NCBI GenBank assembly: GCA_008692225.1
Contig: VICG01000006.1
Coordinates: 160,001 to 224,000, forward strand
Direction: 5' to 3'
Origin: Monilinia fructicola
Taxonomy: Eukaryota; Ascomycota; Leotiomycetes; Helotiales; Sclerotiniaceae
Length of the DNA: 64,000 nucleotides
The notes under the pieces were generated by a model that saw nothing but the letters and a program-made list of their open reading frames with translations, ran no database searches and was not told the origin of the DNA. The translations under genes were made by a program, and so were the position numbers. Shown here piece after piece: positions 16,534 to 25,276 of the stretch; positions within the stretch are counted from its first letter, which is position 1; each line of letters begins with the position of its first letter.

Positions 16534-19500
16534 ATGCCCACAATTAATGTTGTACCGAACTCTACCACAGAACTACAGCAAATTGCAGATATTCTCGCCA
16601 AATCAAGGAAAGTTGTGGTAGTAACGGGAGCTGGCATAAGTACAAATTGTGGGATACCTGTAAGTTGATGAGATTCACTCTTTGCTCATTGGTCAAGGGC
16701 TAACTCAGAACCATAGGATTTCCGCTCTGAACATGGTCTTTATTCTATGATCCAGGCTCAGTACGACGCTGCACTCGAAAACCCACCTTGGGAAATGAAC
16801 GATTATGATATTGATGATCGACCAAAGAAGAAGAGGCGTGTCACAGAGCGCTATTACTACGAACTTGTGACAGCTGATGGCGTGAGGGTAGAATTACCCC
16901 CTGAAGAAACTTCTGAATTGCCTTCTGAGCAGCCCTCCCAACGGTGCTCTCGGCTAGCTTCCAAAGAACCTTCAATACAAGTACAAGCACCCCCTCCTGC
17001 TTCATCTCGAAGAAGTTCTCGTAGGCATGTTTTTTTCGGCACAGGACAATACCAAGAATGAATTTGCAAATCCGAACTTGAAAGGACAAAATCCTCAGAC
17101 CGAGCACGATTCGCCAATTCAGGATGATTCTGTCAGTGGATCTCCAAGAATACATTCCAAGGGTCAATTTTCACGAGCTCGGAATACATCCTCAGTACCG
17201 AGTGATCCTATCAACAAGGCACCTAAACCACCTTCCATGAGTCAGGTTACTCGAGCTCGGAAGGTTTCTTTGGCACAGGTTGAGCCTAAGAACGAGTCGC
17301 CAAAGTCTAGCTGGAAGAGTCCGCTTGCTCGAACTCGGCCTACTCGTGCTTGTGATCGCTGTCGAGCTCGAAAGATAAAATGTGGTGAGGTACGACCATG
17401 TTGTGAACCATGCTCCAAAGCTGGATCCGAATGCATCACGACGGAGAATCCTAAAAGACGAGAATCCCGTAATGGGAACATCAAGCCCCAAGAAGAAATT
17501 ACTCCTTCATTGGAGATGGATATTGATTCGGAGAGTTTTAACGTGGAGGAAAAAGCATCACAACAATTATTGCAAGAGTCTAGTGAATATTCTTCTCGAA
17601 ACTCATCCGAAAATTCTCGGTTGCCTGAGGACGTGGATGCTGAGGACGTGGATGCAGTGAACAGTAAAGAAAAACGCGCTCGACGCTCAGTCAGAAATAT
17701 CTCTCCCTTACCTCTGACAAGCGAAGAAACATCTATTCCAACAAGAATTCGTTCTGATTCTTCTCTATCAAATTCACTTCGACGTGAGAGTAGCATTCGA
17801 TCGACAATTCAAGCCTCGAACACCAACCCGCAGTCTACCTCCAAACCGCGGAATCCAAATCAGAAATCCTCATCACAGATATCTTCTTCCTCGAAGTCAA
17901 TCATCAAAAGCAGATCTTCTTCACGCCAGTCAACTAGATCACGAGCTGATAGTTTATTATCACAGCCTGAACAACAGTCCTCACTCCTTGGAACATCTTC
18001 TCAAGGAAACACCCCAACATTCGAACTTAGCAACAGTAAACTCTCCTCCACAACCAATACCGAAAACGCGTCTATAGATAGTAGCGCTACACCTTCAATC
18101 TCATCAAGCGATTGCAGCAGTGTCAATAAACGCAATTTCTTGAGCGAAGTTAGTTCAATCACGACAGCTTCTGAATCTGAAGAGCCCTCAACGCAATCAT
18201 CTCAATCTTCTTCTTCACGTACATTACCCAATCTCAAAGGAAAAGATCTATTTGACTCGGTCATTTGGTCCGATCCTTTCTCAACCTCCATATTTTATAT
18301 GTTCATCTCCAATTTTCGTCGCAGAATTAACAATAATGTCAAGTCTACCACCACCACTCACAAATTTATCCGTGCTCTCAGAGACAACGGTCGCCTCGTC
18401 CGGAACTACACACAAAATATTGACTGTCTCGAGGAACGTGAAGGTCTCACTACTGACCTCGAGCTTGGGGCGGGCGATCGTACGCGTTTTCAGACCAAAG
18501 TACAAGGCAAATCTGTCCCATCTGGAGGAGAAGGACGAGGAGGAAAGGAAACCCCTCTTGGAACTGGAGTAGAGTGTGTTTTATTACACGGTTCACTCCG
18601 TCAATTGCGCTGCGGGGTTTGTTCAAAACTTACTAGTTGGGATGAAGACGATAGAGAAAATACCACAATGGCTGGATCGGCTCCCGACTGTCCTTCGTGT
18701 ATTTCAAGTTCCCTGTCGCGCCAGGATAAGGGTCGGAGAGGATTAGCTGTTGGCAGGCTTAGACCTGATATCGTTCTTTATGGAGAAGAGCATCCACACG
18801 CAAATCTGGTGGGACCGTTAATCATTCACGACTTGAAACTGGGTCCAGATGTCCTTCTAATTCTTGGTACTAGTTTAAGAGTTCACGGTCTCAAGATCAT
18901 GGTCAAAGAATTTGCACAGGCTGTGCATGCAAGAGGAGGAAGTGTGATCTTCGTCAACCAAACAAAGCCTCCAGAGAGCCAATGGGGTGATGTAATCGAT
19001 TACTGGGTCGAATGGGATTGTGATGCCTGGGTTTTGGACCTAAAGAACCGACGAAGCGACATCTGGCAGCCATATTCGAACGTTACACAGACCGTTGCCA
19101 ACAAAGATCCACCTCCGTCAAAGCAACGCAACCCGTCTGAGAAAATACCAGCATATCGGCCACAGTGTAAAAGAGACGACAAGACTAATGCAGTCCATTT
19201 CACTTTCAAGATACTCGACGATCTTCGAAAGCTCAAGGATAACGAAGGAAATGGATCAGCACGACCTATTTATTGGCAACCTTTCGACCGCAAAGCCTTC
19301 AGAGCTTCTACAGGACAAATACAAGAGCAGAACATGACGAAGAAGTCTCGACCATCTATACTGCCCATCAGGAAATCTCGCAAATCATTCCCAACTTCCT
19401 CAAGTATCAAACCAGCGACTGCTGCCACGCACAGCAAACCCGAGAAAGGCGAACCTATTCCTGAGAATGCTCCTCCAGCTATTGACAATACCCTCTCAAT

Positions 19501-20047
19501 CGAACCACCCCGCAGTGGTGCCTGGCTCGGGGATCGAATTCTCAAGAAGGTCCGCAGACTCACCAACAATACTCTCCCAGAGAGCTTTTTTGATGATCTC
19601 CGAGCCAGGATGTCTTTGGAACGATTAGCTGAGACTGTGCCCGGGAATAGCATCGGATATAAGAGATCATTTGGAGATGTCGGTATAGAGGGTGGCCTCG
19701 AGGTGATTGGTCTACCCAATATGAGGGGCCTGATGGATTCTAAGATCAGTATCAAAGGAATGAGCTTGGCTAGTTTACCTCCGACTGGCTCTCCAGAATC
19801 AGGGAGAAAAGATCAGGGGAAGGGGAAGATGGTGAAGAAAGGAGAGAGGGCTAGTTCACCTCTGGACCAGAGTACAATTGTTGTGCAAGCGAAGCCAGTG
19901 ATGAAACATCCCTATGGGACTAGGAGTAAGCGGACAAATCAGATTGAAGGCGAGGAGAATGGAGATGGTAATGGGGGTGAAGGAGATACTATTGTAGTCA
20001 GGGGGAGAGACAGAATGAGGATTGGGGCAGTCTGTAATGATAGATAA
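16534..20047 (+). CDS. Hst3/Hst4-type sirtuin with embedded Zn2Cys6 zinc cluster, one frameshift
   Basis: About 1,151 aa. Exon 1 16534-16659, intron 16660-16716 (57 nt), exon 2 to the stop. NAD-binding motif TGAGIS is at residues 31-36 and DFRSEHGLYS at 43-52. The catalytic fold is then interrupted by about 490 residues before resuming at GKDLFD (about 550), followed by TQNIDCLE, the catalytic HGS (His about 666), zinc ligands CGVC...CPSC, GTSLRVHG and VNQT. These features are those of class-I Hst3/Hst4 NAD-dependent histone deacetylases (H3K56ac in yeast). The insertion carries an SV40-like nuclear signal (PKKKRRV), Ser-rich disorder and, at residues 254-281, a perfect C-x2-C-x6-C-x6-C-x2-C-x6-C cluster in a basic context (RACDRCRARKIKC), i.e. 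a GAL4-type DNA-binding domain. A T7 run at 17030-17036 must be T6 to keep the frame. The C-terminal ~300 residues are basic and disordered. Confidence 0.85.
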
Positions 20048-21679: not shown

Positions 21680-23212
21680 TCATACACCTAACCTACTTCT
21701 GATCCTCCTCCAGATCTCCTTCTCAAAGCCCTTGACCCAGAAACCTGTTCGTCCTAACGCATCACGATTCTCCTTAACCCTCCTCAACAAAAATTGAAGA
21801 GATTGTTGAGTTGAGCCCCAGACCATACACTTGTATGCTTTAGGTTTTAATGCTTGCGCTAGAATTGATTGCTCTAGTTCAAGTTGCGTAGGATTTCTGT
21901 AGGGTGCATCTCTAGAATCTCGAGATTCGTCGTCTCGACATAATTGCAATAATCCACAACTAATCTCGTCGGCCATCCCTTGGAGTTGTCCAAACGCCAA
22001 TTCAATCGTTGGCTCTCCCTCTCTGATCCTCTGACTTTGGATAGCGTGGGCGCGTTTGATACTCTCCTCGTTATGCGTAGCCAAAAACAGTTCTGCTCTC
22101 GGGTACCCCGTTGCGTCTCCATCAATGTCGATTCCCGGATATGATTTTCCCAGAAGGTTAGCTGCGATACTGTTATAAGCATTATGCGTATCTTGAATAT
22201 TATCATGAATCAGTTCCCTCTTCTCCGTCGCAATATATGCCCCCCTGACTAACTTGATCCCCAGAGTCCAATCCTCTGCTTGAGCGAGTTTCAAGTGATT
22301 GAGAATATTAGAAGGGGTAGCTTTTAAATATGCTTGCATGGTGGTGTATAAAAGCGCTTTGGGGCCAGTGTTATAGATTCGCATGAGATCTTTAGTCCAT
22401 TTTTCAATAGTGTGCTGGAGATCTTGTTGCTCGGCGTCAAGCCAGATGCGGGCTTTTTGAGCTTGGGCAGTACGGAGAAGAAGATGCATGGATTCTTGGA
22501 GTAAAGGTGGTGGGGGAAGATCGTTTGCGAGTGCATGGAGAGCAAGGGGGCCTGCTCCGGAGAACCTGGTTGGGATTAGTGATGCCGTTCTTATGAGCAT
22601 AGAGATGATGAGTTTAGCAGAGACCTACTTGACGGATAGAAAGTCACCAGGTTGTAGTAAAGATATTGTATTCATGAGATCATCCCTCCATTCTCTGATG
22701 GCAGATTCTCCTGCTTCCTTGGTCACGGAACTTTCACTTCCGTGTTGAGCTACTCCTCCCGTGATGTTGACTTCCCTAGCATAACCCAGAATGACACCTC
22801 TAAATCCCAAATTCTTCATATCAGCTACCCTTGCCCTCACTTGAGATGCATTTTCACCGGCGATGAAATGATCGTACATGAAGTTCTTCACTATCATGTG
22901 CAACACTGGATTTCTATCTGAATTTAACAATGCCGAATTAGAGTTTGCGAGCTTGTTCAGTAGCGGAAGGAACAGCTTGATGATTTTCGGTGAAGCTAGA
23001 ATCCAGGTAATGAAGTAGGACTTTAGAAGAAGAGGCATTGGCATTATCGATAGTGGTGGGAGCTCGGAAGTTTTACTTGTATCCGGAGTATTTTGATTGT
23101 GAGAGAAGCCATTTTGATGTGAGATATTTGGAGTTATTGATGAGCATCGCCTTCGAGATTGCAAGAGATATTTCTCCGGTGAAGGGAATCTCTGCATCCG
23201 TCGTAAGAACAT
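21680..23212 (-). CDS. PUT1: Proline dehydrogenase, mitochondrial
   Basis: 489 aa from exons 23212-22629 and 22565-21680 with a 63-nt intron (GTAGGT...ACCAG) restoring SVKFSGAGPLALHAL. PRODH hallmarks: KNFMYDHFIAGE, GYAREVN, IWLDAEQQ, LGIKLVRGAYIATEKREL, ELFLATHNEES, FGQLQGMADE and a C-terminal RRVKENRDALGR, all part of the FAD-binding TIM barrel. The N-terminus (MFLRRMQRF..., then RRRCSS) is Arg/Ser-rich without acidic residues at first, as expected for mitochondrial import. The enzyme oxidises proline to pyrroline-5-carboxylate and passes electrons to the respiratory chain. It is next to a gene for the reverse step (24243-25276), same strand. Length is normal and no frameshift is present. 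Confidence 0.92.
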
Positions 23213-24242
23213 CTTTGGGAAATCGAATGGCTCGAACTCGTCGAATGAGAAGGAAGACCAAGAGATTAGAAATCTGAAGGAAATAGACGTTGGCTTGGGA
23301 GCACCAGTGGAAGTGTTGTCTGATAATATGTCCGATTTCCATCACTTATCAACCCCGATTGTTCTATATTAAGAACAGCCACTTTGTGTATCATCGGGTG
23401 CGTATTACTCGAGTAGCATGAATTTCCACCTCGTAATTGATCCCCAACCCCGCACATCACCCTCACAATATTGCCTTATCAGGCTGGTGAACCCTTATCG
23501 TAAAGTCAAATGTGATATCTTCGTGCATTGAACCAAAATAAGAGTCTCGTTTTAACCGTGAAACTACTTCTAGAGTATAGATCGGCGGAACTGATGGCTT
23601 TGCGACTTGCCCGATTCATGTTCAACTCTGACGGTGAAGATGCCGTGCACGCGGAAGAAATGAAGCCGTCGCTATCCGCGATAAGGAGTGCCGAAGGGAA
23701 TATTTAGATGCCGCGTCTTTATGACTGTCGTAGTAGCACGAGATAAATTTCACCGAGTATCTCTGTTGGAAATTTATTCTCTTCGAATGCAAGCGAAAGT
23801 CATTCCCAGTTGTTAAAATGTTGACTAGAGGAAGAGAGAAGACGATGATGGAAGACAACCATGATCAGCGAGTGGCGGCTCGAATAGAACCCAATGTATC
23901 AACATTCTTTTTGATTTCGAATGGAAAAAATAGGTCCATTTGCGTGCGGCATTTGCCCTTTGGCCATTCATGGTGTTTCTATACGTGAGCATCACAAGAC
24001 AAATAGAAATATTCCGAAGTAAAATATTTTGGAATGGTGGAAGGATCGATGGATATCTACTCTATGGAGACAACTTTTCTAATCTATCGGAGCCGGAACT
24101 TCATCTATAGGATTATATGTCTTTTTTGGTGAAAGATCGATGTCTGGAGTATACAGACTTCTTCTCATCCAGTTCCAAATGGCGCATTGTCGAGTCAGGT
24201 GACCGAGCTTCATATCCAGTCCTGGGTAGGGCAAGAAAGAGT
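23213..24242. other. PUT1 upstream region, no gene seen
   Basis: About 1 kb between PUT1 and PRO3, same-strand genes, so PUT1 promoter plus PRO3 3' end. Open frames here lack recognisable domains. No clear PUT3-type site (CGG-N10-CCG) was identified by eye. Confidence 0.5.
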
Positions 24243-25276
24243 TTATTTCTTGGCCATATTCAAACCATGCTGTACAGAATCGATTGTTGCATCTGTATAT
24301 GTGGACCTGACACCACCCTTCTCGATCGTTTTGAGGCCTTGGATTGTGGTACCCTTGGGGGATGAGATCTTCTCCCGCAAAACAGCAGGATGTTCACCAT
24401 TTTGTATCATCTTTGCAGCTGCGAGCATAGACCCAGCCAGAATTTCCGTTGCGGTATCGCGCTTCATTCCCTCGGAGACGGCACCGTCAAGGATTCCATC
24501 AAAGGCAGTAAGGAACCATGCTGGAGTACAACCTGCAAGAACACCAGCAACTTGGAAAACATTGTCAGGAACATATGTGTATTGACCAATACTTTGAAAG
24601 ATCCACTTCATGGCCTCTTCGTACTTTGGAGAGATGGCTTCCAATCCTGCAGTGGAAACTACGGTTTGTGATTCCTTGATTTGTGCGCCAAGATTTGGCA
24701 TGCTCCTAATAAAGGAACAACCTTTCGTATCCGAATGACCCTTGAAAGCAAACTCCTTCAATTGTTCAGTTGTCGAGCCTGCCAGAACTGAGATGACAAG
24801 TTTGTTTGCTAAAGCATCGGCAACCCCAGGAGCTCCAAGAACTTCCTCGGCCATGTACGGTTTACATGCCAATATAATGATATCGGCTAGTTGAAAGGCT
24901 TTCAGGTTATCATCGTAAAAAACGGCAAGTCTATCACCAGCTTTGCAGTCTTTTGATGCTTGATAGACTTTGGACGCTGAAGCTTTTGTTTTGGTGCAAG
25001 CAATGATATGTGAGATGGGTGTATTATCTCTTGCGTCTTCCACGGAATTTGCAGCAAGAATGCCCGTAAGTATCGCACTTCCCATGTTTCCTAAAATTGT
25101 GAGTGATCATACTTATCAACTGTTAAGTTTTCTGACTCACCACATCCTACCAAGGCGACGACCAAGTTATTGCCCTTCTCCAAATCCCTATTCTCGATCC
25201 ATTTCTCAATGTTTCCCAACACTTGGTTCGAAGTTGGATCACTACTCGTACTTCCTGTTCCGTTTGGTATAGCCAT
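24243..25276 (-). CDS. PRO3: Pyrroline-5-carboxylate reductase
   Basis: 327 aa from exons 25276-25141 and 25090-24243, intron 50 nt (GTGAGT...TTTTAG). The intron falls inside the NAD(P)H-binding GxGxxG: splicing gives LVGCGNMGSAILTG. Later features fit P5CR: IIILACKPYMAEEVLG, VISVLAGSTTEQL, IRSMPNLGAQIKES, and the C-terminal signature QVAGVLAGCTPAWFLTAFDG...ISSPKGTTIQGLKTIEKGGVR. It reduces P5C to proline, the last biosynthetic step, usually cytosolic, and no targeting sequence is visible. Neighbouring PUT1 performs the opposite conversion in mitochondria, so the pair could support a proline/P5C cycle. Length normal; no lesions. Confidence 0.93.

Follow-up and report, generated by a model that had tools for sequence, protein, structure and literature searches.

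A gene on the plus strand at 16534-20047 of the window (the whole stretch of 64,000 nucleotides of Monilinia fructicola analysed here, positions 160,001 to 224,000 of contig VICG01000006.1) encodes a sirtuin whose catalytic domain is split by a long insertion, and this insertion carries a GAL4-type Zn2Cys6 cluster preceded by an array of basic 26-residue units. With a little more confidence than doubt, we read the product as a nuclear deacetylase of the Hst3/Hst4 kind that would be held on chromatin by a DNA-contacting array and a Zn2Cys6 module gained in an ancestor of the Sclerotiniaceae.

A zinc cluster inside a sirtuin domain

The Pfam SIR2 profile matches the public M. fructicola protein of this locus (EYC84_000040, denoted here P0001; 1130 residues, 100% identical to the long frame) with 97.5 bits against a curated cut-off of 24, and all the sirtuin motifs are present: GAGIS (residues 32-36), TQNID (586-590; window 18410-18424), the catalytic HG (645-646, within HGS at 18587-18595) and the four zinc cysteines (C653, C656, C679 and C682; 18611-18700). 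A sequence-only reading of this DNA had placed TGAGIS (residues 31-36; 16624-16641), DFRSEHGLYS (43-52; 16717-16746) and GKDLFD (529-534; 18239-18256) in one interrupted domain, and all three do lie within one gene model, the catalytic domain being split by an insertion; this is long, as had been stated, and measures 476 residues from GLYS to GKDLFD instead of the 490 or so given earlier. A long insertion here is usual for these sirtuins, because homologues devoid of the cluster and with the usual start also place their DLF motif some 125 to 340 residues past GLYS. According to the predicted model and an alignment with SIRT3, the chain departs from the fold into the insertion once past the helix that follows the cofactor-binding loop and returns before GKDLFD, and the model forms the Rossmann and small-domain sirtuin fold across the insertion, with its active-site motifs, in line with the earlier claim that the fold would stay intact. 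NCBIfam gave only bacterial deacylase models, all below their cut-offs; relatives from Ciborinia, Clarireedia, Rutstroemia, Lachnellula, Golovinomyces and Ceratocystis were named hst3 or HST3 by their depositors.

The Zn2Cys6 binuclear cluster, CDRCRARKIKCGEVRPCCEPCSKAGSEC, occupies 17351-17434 (residues 233-260). Its spacing is exactly C-x2-C-x6-C-x6-C-x2-C-x6-C, that of Gal4, with basic residues between the second and third cysteines, as had been noticed from the letters alone, and Pfam Zn_clus recognizes it in P0001 (E 1.2e-5, 25.8 bits, curated cut-off 21), which places both PF02146 and PF00172 above their curated cut-offs on the joined protein. At E 0.1, P0001 contains SIR2 and Zn_clus only and no Fungal_trans domain, a domain that is common, but not universal, in Zn2Cys6 transcription factors. 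Against the Protein Data Bank (PDB), the cluster region matched the Zn2Cys6 domains of Lac9, Gal4, Hap1, Ppr1 and Pho7 (E 7e-5 to 5e-3), and 18 of the 19 sequence matches there are Zn2Cys6 proteins by name, the remaining one being hirudin (E 1.7).

The same architecture, looked for among homologues as the earlier reading had proposed, was found in 14 aligned proteins, which represent 13 species, including that of the window, plus the protein P0014; membership of the Sclerotiniaceae was confirmed by look-up for M. fructicola and Ciborinia and is presumed for the others. Invariant in all 14 are the six cysteines together with D234, R235, R237, K240, I241, G244 and K255, K240 sitting at what we take to be the position of a DNA-contact lysine of Gal4, and an additional cysteine, Cys249, is replaced by serine in the five Botrytis and Botryotinia proteins. 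Invariant columns number 13 of 28 in the cluster and 9 of 60 in its flanks. Such a pattern is what constraint on a module contacting zinc and DNA would produce.

The cluster is directly abutted by the basic array (17039-17350), which consists of four diverged 26-residue units and whose borders were set by comparison with M. laxa. In the 12 of the 14 proteins in which it could be measured (P0001 and P0005 do not have the anchor), the distance from a conserved upstream SRRH or SRRN motif to the cluster is 85, 111 (two proteins), 114, 129, 134 (four) or 137 (three) residues, values that differ mostly in steps of 26. Self-comparison gave 26, 52 or 78 as the top offset, exceeding all 40 shuffles in 7 of 10 proteins; in P0002, P0008 and P0009 the offset did not rise above all 40. 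The last 78 residues upstream of the cluster (111 in two proteins) carry a net charge of +5 to +12. DNA-level repeat finders did not detect the array, which is visible at the protein level only.

A conserved segment running from DIDDRPKKKRRV to YYELVTADGVRVE (16807-16893) contains a basic run (16822-16842) resembling a nuclear localization signal (NLS). The mean pairwise identity over residues 66-100 is 0.97 among the Sclerotiniaceae proteins, P0005 having no such segment; the DIDDRPKKKRRV segment recurs in identical form in two Rutstroemiaceae proteins and in varied form in other cluster-less Leotiomycetes, and PKKKRRV itself (residues 78-84) is found in the same two cluster-less Rutstroemiaceae sequences, with a similar basic run in others. 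The NLS-like run is thus probably older than the cluster, and it does not adjoin it, as had been thought, but lies about 150 residues away. The rest of the insertion, downstream of the cluster (17435-18238), is serine-rich and predicted to be disordered; at 17625-17655, 2.1 copies of a 15-base unit encode EDVDAEDVDA in M. fructicola, and the additional copy corresponds to a gap in the other proteins.

Distribution of the cluster and its possible donor

The sample comprised 134 proteins (83, plus 51 new ones from the best 120 of 338): 133 sirtuins and one transcription factor, P0083. At least 18 of the 133 carry a Zn2Cys6-like cluster and the other 115 show none, the 18 being a lower bound because many models are N-terminally incomplete. 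The carriers are the 14 proteins described above, P0020 and P0022, whose clusters lie in the insertion with other spacing, and P0127 and P0129, with clusters in the C-terminal tail (in P0129 the Zn_clus score, 19.3, is under the Pfam cut-off); these last four come from metagenome assemblies. The cluster of P0127 (residues 585-615) is a full Zn2Cys6; judged by eye, the stretch that holds it is missing from the close relatives P0125 and P0130. In both P0127 and P0129 the cluster is followed by the C-terminal end usual in the family, and is therefore internal and not a read-through join. Over the 134 proteins, an ad hoc hidden Markov model (HMM; its training set was 11 distinct clusters, all from the plus strand) and a regular expression yielded, beyond the 18 carriers, only two N-terminal half clusters, CETCRSKRRRC and CKVCKKRRRRC, in the C-terminal tail (residues 832-923) of P0048, an Hst3-like protein of Coleophoma crateriformis. 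These lack second halves and may be either remnants or parts of a gain. None of eight other sirtuin loci of the M. fructicola genome matched the regular expression for the cluster.

In a fast tree built from 91 catalytic cores, with P0048 scored as cluster-less, the cluster trait takes four changes; 35 of the 88 inner branches are weak, and the well-supported ones force only one change per label. P0020 and P0022 group with the cluster-less Hymenoscyphus fraxineus (SH-aLRT 99), and a single clade uniting them with the Sclerotiniaceae was rejected (p-AU 6.3e-7) in a 32-protein tree, for a group chosen after the first tree. One old gain followed by many losses may be compatible with that rejection; separate gains are favoured, because spacing, site and nearest transcription factor differ. 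Within the family's neighbourhood, both Rutstroemiaceae proteins compared (P0015 and P0016) lack the cluster and the array, so that these could have been gained in the Sclerotiniaceae or lost in the two Rutstroemiaceae.

A search of the whole database with the cluster region alone returned nine candidates, eight of them sirtuins of the Sclerotiniaceae branch, and a donor was therefore sought in the M. fructicola genome itself (44.0 Mb, 20 contigs). There, the nearest cluster to that of P0001 is found at C14:1554491-1554610 (53% identity over 40 residues, 41.6 bits, the next scoring 27.2), and the same factor is nearest to P0014 (49.2 against 34.3). The gene there has Zn_clus and Fungal_trans domains, and we take it to belong to the FacB/Cat8-like family, whose regulators govern acetate use; Fungal_trans is present in the FacB-like P0083. 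This cluster ranks first for all 14 sirtuins among the 32 transcription-factor clusters that could be extracted from 121 matches, the window's own included. The sirtuin scores against it (96 to 138) fall in the ordinary factor-to-factor range (nearest-neighbour median 113, 95th percentile 138), for which reason a FacB-like donor is not a firm claim: P0001, P0005 and P0014 are strongly linked to it, the Botrytis proteins only ordinarily, with a lead over the next cluster that goes down to 2 to 17. Homology to FacB beyond the cluster was considered and is not claimed, the match over the following 15 residues being uneven (shuffle p 0.0005 to 0.55 across the 14 proteins). The P0127 cluster is nearest to a different factor (41.5 against 29.0), and that of P0020 has no standout nearest factor in the M. 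fructicola genome.

These comparisons suggest a wider proposal, which we put forward tentatively and regard as rather doubtful: that Leotiomycete Hst3/Hst4-type sirtuins captured Zn2Cys6 modules repeatedly and independently, at different positions of the chain and from different factors (a FacB/Cat8-like one in the Sclerotiniaceae), which would have turned a general H3K56 deacetylase into a DNA reader, with the Sclerotiniaceae array grown as an adjustable tether. If the gains were indeed recurrent, such targeting would appear to be favoured.

The gene model and its neighbourhood

Exons 16534-16659, 16717-16980 and 17045-20044 give P0001 letter for letter. Exon 1 runs from the ATG to GIP and encodes the first part of the Rossmann fold, as judged by the match to P0001, Pfam SIR2 and the SIRT3 alignment; intron 1 (16660-16716, 57 bases, between GIP and DFRS) is clear, and at its site P0127 and P0110 show additional residues resembling intron read-through. 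Exon 2 of the public model holds DFRSEHGLYS and the start of the insertion, in a frame that stays open to 17061. The second catalytic part (18239-19069) extends from GKDLFD through TQNID, HGS and the zinc cysteines to GTSL (18866-18877), and the C-terminal tail with the stop codon (19070-20047) has a few predicted helices.

The second public intron (16981-17044, 64 bases, including the first two codons of the array) is doubtful. Its codons, VQAPPPASSRRSSRRHV, correspond to VEVPPPASSRRSSRRHV, which M. laxa retains, and other species read similarly and without interruption. The frame changes between 16981 and 17061, close to seven consecutive T (17030-17036), owing to an assembly error, a strain indel near those T or a real intron; the second intron of EYC84_000040 is likely a bridge laid by the gene caller across the change. 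The union of cluster and catalytic domain is untouched by this doubt, because a single open frame (16958-20047, 1029 codons) holds the cluster as well as the second and larger catalytic part. That frame, together with the recurrence of the architecture in relatives, led us to reject two genes or an assembly join, and two genes or a fused gene model are indeed most improbable: the frame change is the sole point in their favour, and in related models the cluster is flanked by conserved segments of the same sirtuin family. It is very unlikely, too, that the gene is broken or mis-assembled in this strain, the frame change near 17.03 kb leaving the window's copy without a full protein. The public intron does drop codons that other species retain and does sit at the T run; a mistake in run length during assembly would give the same picture, however, the open parts on either side can be aligned with M. 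laxa (92% identity across the aligned length), and the architecture in other species would be unaffected.

Elsewhere in the window, two proline enzymes lie close together on the minus strand (21680-25106): a frame for proline dehydrogenase (21680-22624; Pro_dh 145 bits) and one for pyrroline-5-carboxylate reductase (24243-25106).

Possible function and comparison with known systems

By analogy with HstD of Aspergillus terreus, the protein is probably an NAD+-dependent chromatin deacetylase, and the best-supported idea for the insertion is that cluster and basic array would together hold the enzyme on DNA. The proposed course of events starts with a sirtuin of an ancestor of the Sclerotiniaceae that would have acquired, in its flexible insertion, the basic 26-residue array ending in a GAL4-type cluster. 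The cluster would take two zinc ions and dock on DNA, most likely at CGG-type half sites and as a monomer aided by the array, and docking would retain the enzyme at chromatin, with the result that deacetylation (of H3K56, by analogy) would be biased to certain places or last longer there. The earlier suggestion of a deacetylase with its own DNA reader stands in part, as regards the one conserved chain, the predicted sirtuin fold and the constrained cluster; strong sequence specificity of the Gal4 type is unlikely, because a coiled coil after the cluster is not evident.

This last point (the model has no helix over residues 256-530, a low-confidence region) is one of several that weigh against the reading as a chromatin-held deacetylase. 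At 25.8 bits the Zn_clus score is modest, and for P0007 of S. nivalis, where the six cysteines are kept, it falls below the cut-off (18.5); the cluster is modelled at low confidence (block pLDDT 52-68), and when folded alone its fragment gave no Foldseek match; 36 of 407 insertion windows are as conserved as the cluster, some of them overlapping it. DNA binding by the cluster is putative and derived from sequence, the Hst3/Hst4 assignment is putative too, coming from the names that depositors gave to relatives, and H3K56 specificity is by analogy only.

These points bear on what else the cluster might be. A folded zinc module serving protein or RNA contact, or stability, is unlikely but has to be taken seriously: a dimerisation helix is not evident after the cluster, the 15 residues that follow it match the putative FacB-like relative unevenly, and Cep3 and Rsc3/Rsc30, to which there are weak matches, show that such clusters exist outside classical transcription factors. 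Set against this are the basic R237 and K240, invariant in 14 of 14, and the basic array attached to the cluster. Far less probable is a sensor of zinc or redox state that gates the cofactor-binding loop and so regulates the use of NAD+ and not location; the insertion does depart from the fold shortly past the region of that loop, but about 170 to 180 residues before the cluster and 268 after it part it from the core, and P0127 and P0129 carry theirs in the C-terminal tail instead.

Should the enzyme indeed be held on chromatin by its cluster and array, it would be a natural fusion of enzyme and reader, a sirtuin and a conserved module of the sequence-reader type in one chain, and would allow a clean test of targeting with the catalytic core left untouched. 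The two domains have already been paired automatically in databases, where the UniRef name of the protein begins 'Zn(2)-C6 fungal-type domain-con'; in the titles and abstract openings of open-access papers, a search with subscription papers and preprints outside its range, no sirtuin with a Zn2Cys6 domain is described.

The cluster shares the spacing of GAL4-type domains, and differs from GAL4-type factors in lying inside an enzyme, with neither Fungal_trans nor an evident coiled coil. Deacetylases are usually guided to genes by separate DNA-binding partners, and some sirtuins, such as SIRT6, contact DNA themselves. Rsc3 and Rsc30 of the RSC remodeller likewise bring a Zn2Cys6-type region, of weak sequence match (E 0.06-0.25), into a chromatin complex, as separate subunits unfused to an enzyme. 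The same sirtuin motifs are found in A. terreus HstD, M. oryzae MoHst4 and B. bassiana Hst3 and Hst4, for which the literature consulted, available in part, mentions no Zn2Cys6 cluster within the sirtuin domain; HstD deacetylates H3K56 (PMC10454297) and Hst3/Hst4 of filamentous fungi are longer than their yeast counterparts (PMC10846017). Yeast Sir2 is recruited to sites by its partner Sum1, and yeast Hst3 and Hst4 show very little or no presence at telomere repeats and minimal levels on rDNA, according to the same study (PMC4053722). There, too, a sirtuin is brought to places, but by a partner acting in trans. A further parallel is Ume6/Rpd3L of budding yeast, in which a DNA-binding protein likewise acts with a histone deacetylase at genes. 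Ume6 is a Zn2Cys6 protein and Rpd3 a deacetylase of the classical class, the two being separate subunits, whereas here the putative reader and the sirtuin stand in one chain.
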